IMG/VR virus record: IMGVR_UViG_3300010885_007864
Span: 1-28,950 of that record
Length of the DNA: 28,950 bases
Direction: 5' to 3' (one strand)
Source of the DNA: a virus
Both the position numbers and the translations under genes were made by a program. A model generated the notes under the pieces. It had not been told where the DNA came from. It worked only from the letters and a program-made list of their open reading frames with translations, and searched no databases. Every line of letters begins with the position of its first letter. The stretch's first letter is position 1. Positions 8,885 through 28,465 of this stretch are shown piece after piece.

Positions 8885-10414
8885 TTAAGACCCCATCCAT
8901 CCAGTTGATATTGCGCCGCGTTCATGGACGACTCGGCGCTCGATTTTAGAATTGTACTCGCCGCGATTGGCTACCGGATACGAGAACGTCAGCGCTATCG
9001 CATCCGCAGCATCCGGCGACGCCAGCCCACGTGCCTTCATGTCTTTTTTAGACTCCAAAAAGATCGAACCCTTGGAATCCGGCTTCATCATAGGCGAAAT
9101 CAGATCAGATTTCAAGAACCTGTCATTTGGGATGCTGGCGCTCTTAAGCCAATCGCGCATATCGCCCCAAATCTGCGCCCGCATATTACCGTACATAGCC
9201 GGGTTGCGCGACTTCCAGCCGAAGTTCACGCCCTTGATCTTGTAGCGCTGCTCCTTTAGCCGATCCACGATGCCCGCGCCCAGCCCGCCCTCGTCGATGA
9301 ATACCATCGCCGGGCGGTATTCCTCAATCGCCTCGATCACATGCCCAACGACCGTCATTGTGTCGTCGCCCCTGTGCCGGATGATCTTCACGATGTCCCG
9401 CCCTTGCCTGATTGCCAGCACTGTTGCGTCAGCCCCGAATCGCGCTGGGTCAACCCCTATCACAACCGGCGCTGACGGGTCTTTGTACTTTTCCCGTTTC
9501 ATGGCATCGTCCACCACCAAACTAGAAATAAACTGGTCATCCCCCGCATTGGGAAACTCACCATACACCTCCACATGCGCCTGACTAGAGTCCGGCCCAT
9601 ATTCGTCGATGATCTGCTGGTAGACCTGCTTGTCCGTCCCCTCGACCGTGCGCGCGTCCACCACCTTGGTTAGCCAGAACTCGCGTTTGCTGTGGAACGT
9701 CTCGTAGAAGTACCCCGTGTTGCGACGCGGGTTGCTAAACGCCAGCCAAAACCGGTTGGGCGTGTTTTCCGTAAAGAATCCAGCCGTCACCGCCCAAATG
9801 GCGTCGTCAATACCTGATGCCTCGTCAAAAGTCACCATCACACCGTCAAAGTTGTGCACACCCGCATAGGCGTCTGGATTCTCAGCCGACCATAGCCTGC
9901 CTTCGACGCCCCAGTAGCGTGTGCCTTTTCTCAAGTCCCGCTCGACCAATTCGGTTAGCCATTTGGCGGGCATCAGCCTGGTGGCCGAAACCTCAAACCA
10001 GTGACTGTTTAGCGACATCGCCAGCCACTTGGTAATCTCAGCCCAAGTGACGCTTCTGAGCTGGGACTCACTGTTAGCCGATACGATCGTCGTCGAGCCA
10101 ATTCTGGTGGACAGCATCCACAGCACAATCCAGCTGACCAACGCCGACTTGCCGATACCCCGGCCAGAACTGACCGAGTGGCGTAGCGTGTTGAAATCCA
10201 CTTGGCCTTTGTTGGCCTTAATTTGATCCGTGATCTCTTGCAGCACTTCGCGCTGCCATTTGCGCGGCCCATCGAAGTTTTCCAGCGGCGTGCCCTTGAC
10301 GCCCCACGGAAACGTGAACCTCACAAACGCCAGCGGATTGTCTTTGTACTGCGGCGCCCATAGCCGCGCCATGAGTTCTTGTTCGTCTTCAGCCGAGTAC
10401 TTAGTCGTTTGCAT
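8885..10414 (-). CDS. Terminase large subunit (ATPase-nuclease)
   Basis: A 509-aa packaging motor protein. Walker A is SGRGIGKS (83-90) and Walker B plus catalytic Glu is VMVTFDE (192-198), followed by the coupling-type segment AFSNPR (225-230). The RNase-H-like nuclease domain has VIGVDPARFGAD (D322), VFIDEGG (D374) and the final acidic site SPDAADA (D468/D471). It cuts concatemeric DNA and pumps it through the portal. Length fits P22-like TerL. It overlaps the preceding small-subunit gene by 14 bases, the usual TerS-TerL arrangement. Confidence 0.96.
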   Translation of the reverse strand: MQTTKYSAEDEQELMARLWAPQYKDNPLAFVRFTFPWGVKGTPLENFDGPRKWQREVLQEITDQIKANKGQVDFNTLRHSVSSGRGIGKSALVSWIVLWMLSTRIGSTTIVSANSESQLRSVTWAEITKWLAMSLNSHWFEVSATRLMPAKWLTELVERDLRKGTRYWGVEGRLWSAENPDAYAGVHNFDGVMVTFDEASGIDDAIWAVTAGFFTENTPNRFWLAFSNPRRNTGYFYETFHSKREFWLTKVVDARTVEGTDKQVYQQIIDEYGPDSSQAHVEVYGEFPNAGDDQFISSLVVDDAMKREKYKDPSAPVVIGVDPARFGADATVLAIRQGRDIVKIIRHRGDDTMTVVGHVIEAIEEYRPAMVFIDEGGLGAGIVDRLKEQRYKIKGVNFGWKSRNPAMYGNMRAQIWGDMRDWLKSASIPNDRFLKSDLISPMMKPDSKGSIFLESKKDMKARGLASPDAADAIALTFSYPVANRGEYNSKIERRVVHERGAISTGWMGS

Positions 10415-10868
10415 TTTGCACTTTTAGTGGGGACAGCCGCGCCTTGAGCGCTGGGCTTGGTTCGTGCGCTATGACGTCCATGACGTCTGTTGCTGCGCGG
10501 CGTTCGGCTTCTGCTAATGCGCCGACAATGGATATGCGCTGATCCACATCGACAGTGATGGACTGCTTGGCTACCCAGCCGTGGACGTTCTGCAAAATTG
10601 CCAGGGAGGCTTTGGCGTCGCCTTCGGCGGCGGCTGCGTGCAACTGCTTGGAGGCGGTCAGCTCACCGTCAGCGCGCCCTTTGGACTCAGCCATCTCAGC
10701 GATGGGATCCATTTCGCAGAGTTGACGATACGCCTTGGGCAGCATTCCGGCTGCGAAGGCTAAGTTGTCGCCCTTCAGCCCGAGCTTGGCGGCGTCATAG
10801 ATGCGGTTAAGCACCGCCTCGGTGGCGCGTATCTCGTTCAGCACAAGTGGCAGTGAATGGAAACTCAT
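10401..10868 (-). CDS. Probable terminase small subunit
   Basis: A 155-aa protein immediately upstream of and overlapping TerL. It starts MSFHSLPLVLNEIRATEAVL; the first ~60 residues are helical with AAKLGLKGDNLAFAAGMLPK as a likely helix-turn-helix, then a helical middle (SKQLHAAAAEGDAKASLAIL) and a helical, charged C-terminus. TerS proteins recognise the packaging site and stimulate TerL. The assignment rests on gene position and fold pattern. An in-frame ATG at 10910 would add 14 residues, but neither start has a good Shine-Dalgarno; I prefer 10868 because the extension (IYHQGTHSRGHTT) looks unlike the protein. Confidence 0.75.
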   Translation of the reverse strand: MSFHSLPLVLNEIRATEAVLNRIYDAAKLGLKGDNLAFAAGMLPKAYRQLCEMDPIAEMAESKGRADGELTASKQLHAAAAEGDAKASLAILQNVHGWVAKQSITVDVDQRISIVGALAEAERRAATDVMDVIAHEPSPALKARLSPLKVQNAND

Positions 10869-11034
10869 AGTTGTATGGCCGCGTGAATGCGTGCCTTGAT
10901 GATATATCAAAAAATAAAAATTAAAAAATCTTTTACAAAAAGCAGTTTCAAAAAAATTGTCTGCAACCGCTCCGTATCAGCAGGCCCTTTGCGTCGGCCC
11001 TACCCCCTCCCCCTCAAGTCGAATCCGGAATGGC

Positions 11035-11444
11035 TGTGGGTCATGTGGACTGCCCACACCAAGTCGCATGGCCTGGTAACAGTGTGGACAATGTGGACAG
11101 CACACTGCCAAGCGCAGGTGGTCCGTACATTGTGGGTCATGTGGGTAATTTATTTTCTATAGCCAACGTTGCCCACAACATGGCGCCAGTGCGCGATGGC
11201 GATTTTGCGTCGATCCAACTTGTGGGCAATGTGGGCTACTTTGGCGGTAGTTCGCAAGAGGTCTACCCCATATAGCGTAATTTTAAGTTAGTGCTTACTA
11301 ACATACCCAATATAGGTTTTATCTTTTATTCAAAAACAATAGCCCACATTACCCACAAACAGCCTCAACCCGCATATCTACTGGCCTCAAGCGTGGGCAA
11401 TCACACGCCAAAACCGCGTCCACAACAAACCCACATCGCCCACT
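11035..11444. repeat. Array of TGTGGGYAA-like 9-mers, mostly tandem pairs
   Basis: Sixteen 9-mers near TGTGGGYAA. Forward copies begin at 11035, 11044, 11083, 11092, 11131, 11140, 11221, 11230 and 11392; reverse copies at 11050, 11169, 11340, 11349, 11416, 11427 and 11436. Six are exact head-to-tail pairs (period 9): 11035/11044, 11083/11092, 11131/11140, 11221/11230, 11340/11349 and 11427/11436. The first three pairs are spaced exactly 48 bases. TGTGGACAA and TGTGGGTAA each differ by one base from the DnaA box complement TGTGGATAA. The last pair ends 9 bases before a -35 element. Binding protein and function are unknown. Confidence 0.75.
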
Positions 11445-11453
11445 AAATAACGC

Positions 11454-11484
11454 TTGACAGTATTTCTACGCTATGGCGTATAAT
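11454..11484 (+). promoter_or_regulatory. Sigma70-like promoter of early operon
   Basis: A perfect TTGACA at 11454-11459 and a perfect TATAAT at 11479-11484, spacer 19 bases, which is longer than the usual 17. Transcription would begin about 11491, 26 bases before the ATG of the first rightward gene. It lies directly downstream of the 9-mer array, so a protein bound to the last repeat pair (11427-11444) could control it. Confidence 0.7.
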
Positions 11485-11516
11485 TACACTTCCCTCAACT
11501 TTTACGGAAAACTGTA

Positions 11517-13023: not shown

Positions 13024-15315
13024 CTATTTCACCAACCGCACCGACATCGGCGGCGGCGCTTCAATCATCCGGCGCAAGTCTGATTTAGCCGTCCCCGCCA
13101 TTTCAGGCGAACAGAAGATATGCTTCTTAGTGCCAAACTCACGCGAAGCTATGCGGCCCATGTCCACCCATCCGGCCTCCTTAAACGCATGCAGAAGCGC
13201 AGGTTGCACGACTTTGACGCTACCCTGTGCAGTACCTTGCAAACGATCGCACAGCGCATGCCAGGGCGCGCCCACCACACCCTTGGAAAACTCACCGATA
13301 CCAGAACGCATCAAGTCCACTAGGAACGACTCAGCGCCACTCATGCCAGCCTCAACCATAATGGCTTTGGCTTCGGTCATAGCAGGGGTTGAGCCAGGAT
13401 TGAACGCCGATACGTCACGCTGATGCAACCAGGCGGCGACTGCGCCCTTACCGCCGGCATTCAACCAGCCCCAGATGGCCTCGCCCTCGGCATCAGTCAT
13501 GCGCGGCGCGTCTGACCAGATCACAAACCATCGGCGGTCATCAGAGGGCAAGTTAATTGCCACGCGTTCATTAGAAAACGCGATTACTTGCAGGCGGTTT
13601 ACTAGGTCATACGGCGCAAGACCCTTACGCTGAACTGACAAGAACTCAGGCGGCGCGGCGATTAGGGGTTTCAGGGTATTCTCAAGCGCCCTTCTATCCT
13701 TGGCCTCAGACTGGCGCAATTCGTTAATGACCAGCACCTCGGTTTCAAGCGCATAGCCCCACTGCGACGTCACCTCTTCATTGCGCACCAGCGACACGTT
13801 ACGCATCGACTCACCGCCGATAGCGTAGAAAAACGGCGCCCACATAGTATCTTTGCCTGACCCGGGGTTGCCGCCATGTAGCACAGCGTGATTGATTTTG
13901 CGGTTAGCGTGCTGAACCTTAAAAGCCATCACGTTTAGGACGTGAGCGCGTTCACGCTCATCGGGGATCATGCGCTCGACATGATCTAGCCACGGCTTGA
14001 CGTTACCAGGCACAGGCACAGGCCGGGCATCACGCCAGCGGTTGCCGAACACAATGCCATCACGCGAACATAGGATCGACTCACCAGCGGCGTAGGTCAC
14101 GCCCTTCAAGATGCGCGCACCCTTAGCCTGGCGGTTTTCGTCAAAGCAGGTACCCGCTTCGATCTTGGGTTTCTTGCCGTGAATACTGTTGCAAGCCACA
14201 TGACGATAGATCGCGTTGAACGAATGGCGGGCCACTTCGTGGCGTTCGATCAGGTCAAAAAAGGCGTCGTCATCTTGCAGGTACGCGAAGCGTTCATACC
14301 AGCCGTCTTTTTCGATGCGCCCTAGTTCTTTGCGCTTGACTTCGGCCACGACTTCAGAGGCCACGTCAGGAAAAGCCGCCGTGGGCGTCAACTTAGCTAA
14401 CGCAGACTCCATCGCGGTCATCAGTAATTCTTCACGCAGGCCGGGCGTATGCTTTGGGCCACCATTGTCGGCCACCCATTGCAGAAACACGGACGATGTG
14501 AAGTCAAGGCAATGCGAATGCAGGCAGCAATACGCTCGGTTAGCCGGCAAATAACGGCCTTCTGGGTTGCCATCGCTGTGTGAGGCGCTGTTTGGGCAGA
14601 TCACGCCAGCCCAGCCCTCTTGATTGGGCTTGGACAACAGCGCGCCTTGCTCAGACAACCAGACCATCACGTCATCGGTGCCGTCATCGCTAATGCGAAT
14701 CGGCTTGTAAGCATCAGCGGCCACGCCGGGCGTCACATTGAGGGCAGTGCATATCTCAGGCAGTGTGAAGTCACGCTCGGGATGAAACTCGACCAGCACA
14801 GAAGCAAACTCATCGCGGCCGGGCTTCAGGTTGACCGAACCAGGCAAGCGAAAATTGCGCACGGCATTGATCGCGCCCTTGTCGGTGTAACCAGCGTCAG
14901 CAATCGCAATGATGGCGGCGCTGAACTCGGCCTTGGTCGGCTGTTCGCTGAAGACATAGCCCCACTGAAACGAACCAGGCGACGTCTCCATTTTCCACGT
15001 CGGCTCAAGTGGGGGAATGTCGGCCTTGGTGCCCACATCATCCAGCACCATCACCAGCACATACTCGCAATTGGCCGCGCTGGCGCTAATGTGACCGTCT
15101 TTAAAGCGATCAAGGATGAACGAGGCAGTATTGCCATAGATCGCCCATGAGGACTTGACCTTGGCATCGGGCAGCATAGCCGGCCATGTGCATTTGATCG
15201 CACCATCGGCGTGATACTGATATTGGGTGTCTTTTAACTGTGGCTTTTGGCGCACCATCAAAAAAGTTTCGCCCTCAGGGGCCAGTTTTGTCAAAAACTC
15301 TGTAAAATCGGACAT
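13024..15315 (-). CDS. Primase-helicase (RepB-like primase + D5/SF3-type helicase)
   Basis: A 763-aa replication protein. The N-terminal domain has VLVMVLDDVGTK (86-97), TSPGSFQWGYVF (111-122) and NFRLPGSVN (154-162), the pattern I know from RepB-like/archaeo-eukaryotic primase domains in phages. A Cys/His cluster follows (C240, H246, C263, C264, H266, H268, C269), possibly zinc binding. The C-terminal helicase has Walker A GGNPGSGKD (481-489), Walker B LVINEL (528-533), sensor VIAFSNE (577-583) and DDRRWFV (592-598), as in the DUF5906/NrS-1-type helicases. It would unwind DNA and lay primers. AAGGAG lies 6 bases before the ATG. Last gene of the leftward replication operon. Confidence 0.9.
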   Translation of the reverse strand: MSDFTEFLTKLAPEGETFLMVRQKPQLKDTQYQYHADGAIKCTWPAMLPDAKVKSSWAIYGNTASFILDRFKDGHISASAANCEYVLVMVLDDVGTKADIPPLEPTWKMETSPGSFQWGYVFSEQPTKAEFSAAIIAIADAGYTDKGAINAVRNFRLPGSVNLKPGRDEFASVLVEFHPERDFTLPEICTALNVTPGVAADAYKPIRISDDGTDDVMVWLSEQGALLSKPNQEGWAGVICPNSASHSDGNPEGRYLPANRAYCCLHSHCLDFTSSVFLQWVADNGGPKHTPGLREELLMTAMESALAKLTPTAAFPDVASEVVAEVKRKELGRIEKDGWYERFAYLQDDDAFFDLIERHEVARHSFNAIYRHVACNSIHGKKPKIEAGTCFDENRQAKGARILKGVTYAAGESILCSRDGIVFGNRWRDARPVPVPGNVKPWLDHVERMIPDERERAHVLNVMAFKVQHANRKINHAVLHGGNPGSGKDTMWAPFFYAIGGESMRNVSLVRNEEVTSQWGYALETEVLVINELRQSEAKDRRALENTLKPLIAAPPEFLSVQRKGLAPYDLVNRLQVIAFSNERVAINLPSDDRRWFVIWSDAPRMTDAEGEAIWGWLNAGGKGAVAAWLHQRDVSAFNPGSTPAMTEAKAIMVEAGMSGAESFLVDLMRSGIGEFSKGVVGAPWHALCDRLQGTAQGSVKVVQPALLHAFKEAGWVDMGRIASREFGTKKHIFCSPEMAGTAKSDLRRMIEAPPPMSVRLVK

Positions 15316-26428: not shown

Positions 26429-27658
26429 TTAATCAGGAGTAAAACCAGAAGGAGGCGCAATCGTAGGCGCAACAGCTTTTGTTGCCCCGCCTTTAGTTGG
26501 TGTTTTAAATGATTTGTAACCTTGTTCGGGATTGTACGTGCCGGTCAATGCTTCGGCGTCGTCCAATTGAATTTTCCGCAAACGCTCCAACTTTTTCAGT
26601 GCGGTTTCAGCATTGTCTGTAGTAAGCGGGATAAAAGGTTTTAGGCGAGGACTTTCCGACACAGTAACGGCGGCGCCGCTTCGGTCATGCATGATCATCG
26701 AACCAATGTCTGCAATTGCAGCCCGCGTCACCGTGCCTTCAGGGTCTAAGCGATTCAATGCAATATCAGGCGTATAGGCTTTAAGCCCAACAGCAGTTTT
26801 GCTACCTTTTTGCCCCGCCACTTCCAAACCTTTTAGCAGATCAATTGCATCAGATAATTTACCGATAGACGCTGCTGCGCCCGTAATAGCTTTTTGCGCA
26901 TGGACAGGCACTGGTTTTAATTCACCGCCCGCTACTTTTCGGTCTAACTCTTGTTGGGCAATAGCAATCCGCTGACCTTCAAGTCCTACGCGCTGACCTT
27001 CGTAGCCGGCGCGCTGTTGTGCGATTGCATTGGCCGCACGCTGAGCTTCGGACATTTGTTCTTTATACAGTTCACCGGGCGTAAACTTGCCGCTAATGTC
27101 TGTCGTGCCAGTTTGCACGCCTTTACCGGGGATGGTAATAGCGTGAAATTTAGGCGTTAACTTGTCAGCCTCGATGGCAATGCCAGCAGCCCAATCTTTG
27201 ACTTTTGCAGGATCATTACCCAACTGTTGAAGTTGCGCGAGATCGTCAGCCACATCAATGCCAGTCTGACGTGAAAAATTCGTAAGAATTTGCGCTGCTG
27301 CTTGTGGATTTGCAAAAACTTGATTAGCCGCGCCTTTGATTAGCTCGTGTTGCGTTTTAGCTTGAGTCAGTTGCGCAGTTTTTTGTTCTTGAGATTGCTT
27401 TTGCACAGCCATTGCTTGACGACCTAAGCCTTGTGCCATAAGTCGAGACGAGACGTCTTGCGGCGTGCCGCCGCCTTTCCATGCTTCAGATTCAGCAGCC
27501 GCAGCCTGTTGCTCTCGCAAAGCATTTTGAAGTTGAATATCGCCAAGCTGACGCGCTTGCGCTTGCTGCGCCAAAGTGTTTTGACGTTCTTGGCCTTGAG
27601 TATAGCCTTGAAAAAAGTCTTGCCGTGGAATCAAGGCATTGAAGTTAAGTTCTGGCAT
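26429..27658 (-). CDS. Large Gln/Ala-rich virion protein, ejection-like (409 aa)
   Basis: A 409-aa helical protein starting MPELNFNALIPRQDFFQGYT. Residues ~25-120 are Gln/Ala-rich (TLAQQAQARQLGDIQLQNAL), 190-240 is a further helix with RAGYEGQRVGLEGQRIAIAQ, containing an EGQRx repeat. The end is polar and Pro-rich. AAGGA lies 6 bases before the ATG. Together with its neighbours it probably forms internal, DNA-delivery proteins; this is inferred from position and composition. Confidence 0.72.
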   Translation of the reverse strand: MPELNFNALIPRQDFFQGYTQGQERQNTLAQQAQARQLGDIQLQNALREQQAAAAESEAWKGGGTPQDVSSRLMAQGLGRQAMAVQKQSQEQKTAQLTQAKTQHELIKGAANQVFANPQAAAQILTNFSRQTGIDVADDLAQLQQLGNDPAKVKDWAAGIAIEADKLTPKFHAITIPGKGVQTGTTDISGKFTPGELYKEQMSEAQRAANAIAQQRAGYEGQRVGLEGQRIAIAQQELDRKVAGGELKPVPVHAQKAITGAAASIGKLSDAIDLLKGLEVAGQKGSKTAVGLKAYTPDIALNRLDPEGTVTRAAIADIGSMIMHDRSGAAVTVSESPRLKPFIPLTTDNAETALKKLERLRKIQLDDAEALTGTYNPEQGYKSFKTPTKGGATKAVAPTIAPPSGFTPD

Positions 27659-27667
27659 ATTTAATCC

Positions 27668-28465
27668 TTAGCCCATCGAGTATTGTGCAGCCGCAGCGCC
27701 TAAACCGCCAACGTCTTGAAACCCACCCGAGCCAGACGGCTTTAGCCAATTGCTAAGTGCATTACCTGCGCTAGTCCAGTTGGCGTTGCTGACGCCGCCG
27801 ATTGCGCTACCTAGATTACCATACGCCGACTGGTTGGCTTGATACGCGCCAAGCCCAGCGTTTGCGCCGGTGTAGCCCTGATTGATCAAAGCGTTGCCCA
27901 CATTTTGACCGTATTGCTGCCCCGCTGCACCTAAAGTATTGGCCGCAGACTGACCGACGCCAGCTAAAGATTGCAATGGCCCCAGACGTGCTTGGCGTTC
28001 AGTTTGATAGCGATTGAATGCGTTGCCGTATTCTTGAGATGCTGAGTTTTGCGCGTAATCTTGCATCGCCTTAAGTGACGTACCCGATACTGCGCCGCCA
28101 CGAGCGCCCATTTGATGACCTAATGCTTGTTGACCTTGCTGCAAACGGAATTGATAACCAGGGTCTTGCTGGAATTGATTCATTCCAAACGGCGTATAGT
28201 TTGTCGCCAATGGCGTCAATGCGTTTAGTGCGGTTTGACCAGCCTGCAACCAAGGTTGCTGCTGCGCTTGCTGCGCTTGCCACATCTCGCGCTGAAGTTT
28301 TGTGGCCTCATTGGTAGCTGCCTGCGTTTGCGCAGTAGCTTGTTGTGCAGCACTAGAGGCTTGACCGCCTTCTAATGCGCCACCAAGCAAACCGCCGAGT
28401 GCGCCGCCCACACCCGGAAGAAGTAAGTTGCCGCCAATCGCGCCTAATGCTTGTATCAAACCCAT
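27668..28465 (-). CDS. DNA-ejection-like protein, gp7 position (265 aa)
   Basis: A 265-aa protein starting MGLIQALGAIGGNLLLPGVG, a Gly-rich hydrophobic head (residues 1-35), followed by Ala/Gln helices (QREMWQAQQAQQQPWLQAGQ) and a DPGYQFRLQQGQQAL segment that I recognise from phage injection-type proteins. The C-terminus is Gly/Asn-rich. First of three ejection-like genes; AAAGGA lies 7 bases before the ATG. Likely carried in the virion and injected with DNA; function inferred. Confidence 0.78.
   Translation of the reverse strand: MGLIQALGAIGGNLLLPGVGGALGGLLGGALEGGQASSAAQQATAQTQAATNEATKLQREMWQAQQAQQQPWLQAGQTALNALTPLATNYTPFGMNQFQQDPGYQFRLQQGQQALGHQMGARGGAVSGTSLKAMQDYAQNSASQEYGNAFNRYQTERQARLGPLQSLAGVGQSAANTLGAAGQQYGQNVGNALINQGYTGANAGLGAYQANQSAYGNLGSAIGGVSNANWTSAGNALSNWLKPSGSGGFQDVGGLGAAAAQYSMG

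Follow-up and report, generated by a model that had tools for sequence, protein, structure and literature searches.

A tandem 9-mer array that varies with the winged-helix wing of a phage primase-helicase is a candidate iteron origin

We found that an array of tandem 9-mers in the genome of a lake phage varies in sequence, from one relative to the next, together with the wing of the phage's own primase-helicase and with no other protein tested. The array is very probably an iteron-type replication origin, for which the primase-helicase would serve as initiator through its C-terminal winged helix. The window that we analyzed is the entire IMG/VR record, 28,950 bp.

The array lies in a region of 648 bp (10869 to 11516) that is intergenic and divergent, as a sequence-only reading of the same DNA had described it. 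A strict search of this region with the pattern TGTGG[AG][CT] found 14 boxes, including 5 tandem pairs with a 9-bp step. In 2,000 dinucleotide shuffles, the mean was 0.5 boxes and the maximum was 4, with no tandem pairs at all, and any other 648-bp stretch of the record had at most 4 boxes and no pair. The tandem 9-mers and their coordinates, as given in the earlier reading, were borne out when we rechecked them: there are six head-to-tail pairs with an exact 9-bp step, four on the plus strand (11035/11044, 11083/11092, 11131/11140, and 11221/11230) and two on the minus strand (11340/11349 and 11427/11436), and the pairs at 11035, 11083, and 11131 are spaced 48 bp apart. Single boxes are found at 11050 (minus), 11169 (minus), and 11392 (plus). 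The left-arm pairs point to the right and the right-arm pairs point to the left, with AT-rich sequence (11269 to 11343) in between. Multiple short iterons around an AT-rich stretch are also characteristic of SaPI Rep-type origins. The features of the array, its surroundings, and the primase-helicase gene are as follows.

8885 to 10414: large terminase gene (TerL), next after the terS-like gene.
10401 to 10868, minus strand: small-terminase-like gene (terS), left neighbor of the array region.
10899 to 11013, no strand: conserved element beside the terS start, made up of an AT-rich block (10899 to 10962) and GGCCCTACCCCCTCCCC; from the sequence and the relatives.
11035 to 11148, plus strand: left arm, with three tandem 9-mer pairs (11035 to 11052, 11083 to 11100, and 11131 to 11148) at the 48-bp step; homologous pairs in relatives.
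11050 to 11058, minus strand: inverted box overlapping the left arm; from the sequence.
11169 to 11177, minus strand: single inverted box TGTGGGCAA; from the sequence.
11221 to 11238, plus strand: tandem pair TGTGGGCAA TGTGGGCTA, homologous to TGTGGACAA TGTGGACAT in L004.
11269 to 11343, no strand: central AT-rich stretch between the plus and minus pairs, a candidate unwinding element; AT fraction of 0.68 to 0.80 in 25-bp bins.
11287 to 11302, no strand: palindrome GTTAGTGCTTACTAAC within the central AT-rich stretch; from the sequence.
11340 to 11357, minus strand: right-arm tandem pair TGTGGGTAA TGTGGGCTA, in the opposite orientation to the left arm; from the sequence, and the right half in relatives has mostly minus boxes.
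11392 to 11444, no single strand: degenerate boxes, CGTGGGCAA at 11392 (plus) and a pair at 11427 to 11444 (minus); from the sequence.
11454 to 11484, plus strand: promoter-like TTGACA-N19-TATAAT, read from the sequence; it abuts the right end of the array and points into the small early genes.
From 11517, plus strand: small rightward early genes, to the right of the array region.
13024 to 15315, minus strand: 763-amino-acid primase-helicase with an AEP-like N terminus, a DUF5906/D5 helicase, and a C-terminal winged helix; the putative cognate initiator.
13060 to 13338, minus strand: predicted winged-helix domain (residues 660 to 752), likely iteron binding; mean pLDDT of the model, 84.
13120 to 13161, minus strand: wing segment (residues 719 to 732, MGRIASREFGTKKH); the box sequence covaries with its residues 723, 726, and 728.

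The element at 10899 to 11013 is strongly conserved next to the terS start and is a landmark in 125 of 204 relatives. The AT-rich block that the sequence-only reading had set beside the array is real, but it belongs to this element, which is possibly part of the origin or else a packaging, termination, or unwinding element. A promoter scan with spacings of 16 to 18 bp made no call at 11454 to 11484, where the 19-bp spacing is atypical. The early genes between the array and the primase are small, rightward, and cassette-like, and they vary strongly among the relatives. Querying annotated phages directly with the DNA of the region gave no match.

We collected relatives by scanning viral contigs with the primase and with the terminase, which yielded hundreds of related contigs; for array comparison, we used 204 distinct terS-upstream regions. 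In nearly all of the ~200 distinct relatives, an array occupies this position, but its letters differ. The array words are TGTGGACAA, TTTGGGTCA, TGTTGGCTA, TGTGRGTCA, TGTGGGYAA, and TTTGACAA, and further TGTAGTCAT/TTAGTCAT, TGTAAGCAA, and TGTAAACAA. Across the relatives, boxes within 300 bp of the conserved GGCCCTACCCCC landmark are predominantly plus boxes, and those in the following 200 bp are predominantly minus boxes. Comparison with related phages, which had been proposed as a check, shows that the place and architecture of the array are kept while its word changes. The other check proposed on sequence, GC skew, showed no turn at the array, either in the window or in the relative MW202483.1 (L173), a complete circular genome of 38.8 kb from a spring that is annotated as Podoviridae.

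To identify the protein that the array word tracks, we assigned arrays to hand-made classes and compared each with the class of its nearest neighbor. Neighbors by primase had the same class in 85 of 94 cases, compared to 55 of 108 for TerS, 48 of 100 for TerL, and 16 of 43 for PolA. Class agreement for TerS was about as poor as that for the other nonprimase genes, and at some loci near-identical TerS proteins are accompanied by different arrays. Along the primase, agreement rose from 0.60 at the N terminus to 0.94 over residues 667 to 763. The C terminus faces the array, and part of this rise could reflect linkage. TerS adjoins the array and PolA adjoins the primase; hence, simple linkage fails to explain the primase agreement. 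Moreover, a gene family located between the array and the primase (101 loci) showed an agreement of only 0.69, which speaks against linkage as the sole cause of the primase signal. We also compared arrays at 165 loci by their repeated 7-mers, which removes the dependence on hand-made labels. Array similarity to the nearest neighbor was 0.588 for the wing, 0.260 for TerS, 0.266 for TerL, and 0.215 for PolA (random, 0.174). With neighbors of >80% primase identity left out, it was 0.449 for the wing versus 0.13 to 0.20. Five further proteins gave values of 0.24 to 0.33, compared to 0.50 to 0.58 for the wing at the same loci. Chimeric metagenome assemblies may be expected to weaken such an association, not to create it.

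The primase-helicase gene is 1.6 kb from the array. Profile searches identified a D5/SF3-type helicase domain (DUF5906, E value of 5e-12; NrS-1 primase, E value of 3e-10), and NrS-1 primase, a relative of solved structure, was also the top Foldseek match, with further matches to SaPI5 PriRep1 and to D5-type helicases. The protein probably has an AEP primase domain: at the N terminus, RepB_primase was below the cutoff (E value of 0.02), and Foldseek matched the AEP domain of S-2L PrimPol (E value of 8e-6; TMt, 0.63). The C-terminal domain had no Pfam match. Its model has winged-helix topology, with residues 723 to 730 forming the wing between two strands (pLDDT, 84), and its structural matches are mostly winged helices from many families, with Z scores of at most 6.1. 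The support extends only to the fold class. The P4 origin-binding domain was absent among the structural matches listed for the C-terminal model in a low-sensitivity search. The wing of RFX1 reads the major groove. The tail of a virus primase-helicase has been likened to RFX1, as has the origin-binding domain of P4 (PMC10516667).

Particular wings go with particular boxes. TGTGGACAA boxes pair with the wing GRLKSRxxD[TNS]KK, TTTGGGTCA boxes with GRVASxDx[QP]SKK, TGTTGGCTA boxes with GRLASRxx[QG]TKK, and TGTGRGTCA boxes with GLLKSRA[HN][TP]TKK. Positions 728 and 726 covary most strongly, and residue 723 is exchanged in both of the closest A/C pairs. For independent contrasts, we used a tree of primase residues 1 to 640 only, leaving out the C-terminal domain. 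On this tree, the state of base 6 underwent at least 24 changes. In 21 supported, independent contrasts of D728 with base 6, 15.8 agreed and none opposed (P of ~3e-5); in 21 contrasts of K723 with base 4, 19.3 agreed and 0.1 opposed (P of ~4e-6). The K723 rule has five exceptions, including the window, where an I722-A723 wing occurs with TGTGGG, as in L101. L047 (half TGTGGACAA and half TTTGGGTCA), L188, L308, and L423 are exceptions to the match of wing and box, and a subclade with I722-K723-D728 has mixed boxes. In the TGTGRGTCA class, a 10-bp step occurs along with L721; we had considered this as independent support and rejected it, since it arose only once on the tree. When dominant words were predicted for 24 unseen arrays, 5 of the 6 predictions for arrays whose exact wing was known were correct, compared to 2 of the 18 for arrays with a new wing, where the word count is dominated by a second palindrome, which is part of the reason; similarity was 0.33, versus 0.11 for random. 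These comparisons point to box and wing having switched together many times. Since the box letters follow the wing of the primase-helicase, it is probably this phage protein that binds the boxes.

The window itself looks as though it has been caught in mid-switch. In the relatives nearest to it (L003, L006, and L023), the wing residues are K723/D728, and there are 9 to 16 TGTGGA boxes versus 1 to 3 TGTGGG boxes. In contrast, the window has A723/G728 and 4 TGTGGA versus 10 TGTGGG boxes. Homologous boxes on both strands differ at base 6, as for TAGCCCACATTACCCACAA at 11340 in the window and TAGTCCACAATATCCACAA in L006. The K/D wing and TGTGGA boxes are also seen in two further close relatives, L359 and L360. 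By parsimony, the window lineage would be the one that changed; its wing has apparently switched, together with most but not all of its boxes (TGTGGA to TGTGGG).

The sequence-only reading regarded the arrangement as outside the standard origin forms. However, phage P4 and SaPIs offer precedents, with iteron origins that a primase-helicase reads. The C-terminal domains of SaPI Rep and SCCmec Cch2, which are self-loading helicases, bind short origin repeats (iterons), with the origin downstream of the gene (PMC7581432). SaPI Rep/PriRep and Cch2 consist of a primase with a D5/SF3-type helicase, a build that the phage protein probably shares, and PriRep1 is among the fold matches reported above. 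Unlike those systems, the phages studied here are podoviruses (one named relative is so annotated), have ~10 to 17 boxes arranged as 9-bp tandem pairs at least 1.6 kb from the gene, and switch box sequence repeatedly among close relatives. P4 alpha is also a primase-helicase with origin iterons; according to the passages on P4 in PMC4234260 (citing Yeo 2002) and PMC10516667, its winged-helix domain binds the origin repeats. The P4 primase, in contrast, is of the TOPRIM type (PMC4234260). Because SaPI Rep and Cch2, which are of the same general kind as the phage protein, read their origin repeats with the C-terminal domain, and P4 alpha does so with a winged helix, the array is best read, by analogy, as an iteron origin of the P4 alpha/SaPI Rep kind, with what appears to be unusually frequent switching of specificity.

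Variation of iterons between relatives has precedents. In the ICP1 satellite PLE, iteron change escapes the origin-directed nuclease Odn, and the initiator and iteron specificity vary between relatives (PMC8263062). PLE differs in having three semipalindromic ~30-bp iterons bound by RepA rather than many 9-mers, and here the wing changes within one primase-helicase family. Geminiviruses are plant viruses with a different replication protein and rolling-circle replication. They resemble the phages studied here in that their iterons differ between close viruses, with each Rep recognizing its own (PMC12548392).

The array, its conserved place, its variation with the wing, and the fold class come from computation; from these, we infer that direct binding, melting, and the start of replication occur at the array. 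The C-terminal winged helix would recognize the 9-bp boxes, both neighbors of each pair, on oppositely oriented arms to either side of the AT-rich center. Assembly into a D5/SF3-type helicase would follow, and the protein would melt the AT-rich stretch and prime synthesis before handing over to the phage family-A polymerase. The comparative data give the candidate-origin reading good, if indirect, support.

Host DnaA, the primase-helicase, and a phage repressor had each been put forward as the binder. Covariation favors the primase-helicase, and a repressor is not what the 9-mers track. Host DnaA is disfavored, and a DnaA-box origin is very improbable even though, as had been pointed out, the variants TTGTCCACA and TTACCCACA are each one base from TTATCCACA; TGTGGACAA, the complement of TTGTCCACA, is one base from the E. 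coli box. Against this, TTATNCACA does not occur in the whole record, most classes (such as TTTGGGTCA, TGTTGGCTA, and TTTGACAA) are not DnaA-box-like, and the letters of the boxes vary among close relatives along with the phage wing residues. A phage-encoded protein with a DnaA helix-turn-helix (HTH) was considered as a general binder and rejected, since such small proteins are present in only 6 of 358 loci.

The array might instead be an operator by which the primase-helicase or another early protein controls divergent early and terS promoters, with replication starting elsewhere. The promoter-like sequence at the right end of the array, the intergenic and divergent setting, and the palindromes GTTAGTGNNTACTAAC in some arrays are consistent with such a role. 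We consider it improbable: the array covaries with the primase-helicase and with no small early protein, the early genes differ widely between relatives, and inverted arms around an AT-rich center suit an origin better. The array may have a dual use, as an origin and in control of the early promoter. Packaging sites are often directly upstream of terS, where this array is found, so that it might be a pac or cos site read by the small terminase subunit. This is the remotest of the alternatives, since class agreement with TerS neighbors is barely above that for TerL despite the adjacency of terS, and arrays differ at loci with near-identical TerS.

From sequence alone, a likely origin and a likely initiator can be named for a large phage group whose members are uncultured and mostly from fresh water. 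Some 200 origin repeats, each naturally matched to a recognition wing, become available for study, with many independent switches among them. How a winged-helix wing picks DNA bases, and why phages change origin specificity so often, become testable. We tentatively raise the possibility, which we regard as rather doubtful, that antagonism drives the joint switching of iteron and wing, with co-infecting phages, satellites, or origin-directed homing nucleases punishing a shared origin type. If so, the phage group would maintain origin classes that rotate and are incompatible with one another; they would form a kind of immunity grouping based on the replication origin, with a recognition code that could be read from the wing of the winged helix.

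Several individual loci have features of their own. In L173, an annotated homing endonuclease (27644 to 28090) lies between terS and the origin array, and the first 500 bp upstream of terS in L059 include an inserted stretch that may resemble it; by analogy with ICP1, an origin-directed nuclease is conceivable for these insertions. L047 has TGTGGACAA boxes in the terS-proximal half of its array and also TTTGGGTCA boxes, with a primase wing of the TTTGGGTCA type, and its array is either a recombinant origin or an assembly chimera. A stand-alone 98-amino-acid protein with a DnaA HTH (PF08299, E value of 1e-17) is encoded in L173 (31423 to 31719), L174, and L175, with weaker matches in L177, L178, and L184. 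The word GTTAGT (class G) was rejected as an iteron word, being a separate palindrome. This palindrome, of the form GTTAGTG..TACTAAC and 16 to 20 bp long, resembles an operator for a dimeric regulator of its own, and a separate repressor may act on such palindromes inside the array. There is one copy in the window (11287 to 11302), there are 5 to 6 copies in L112, L122, and L125, and it is also found in others.
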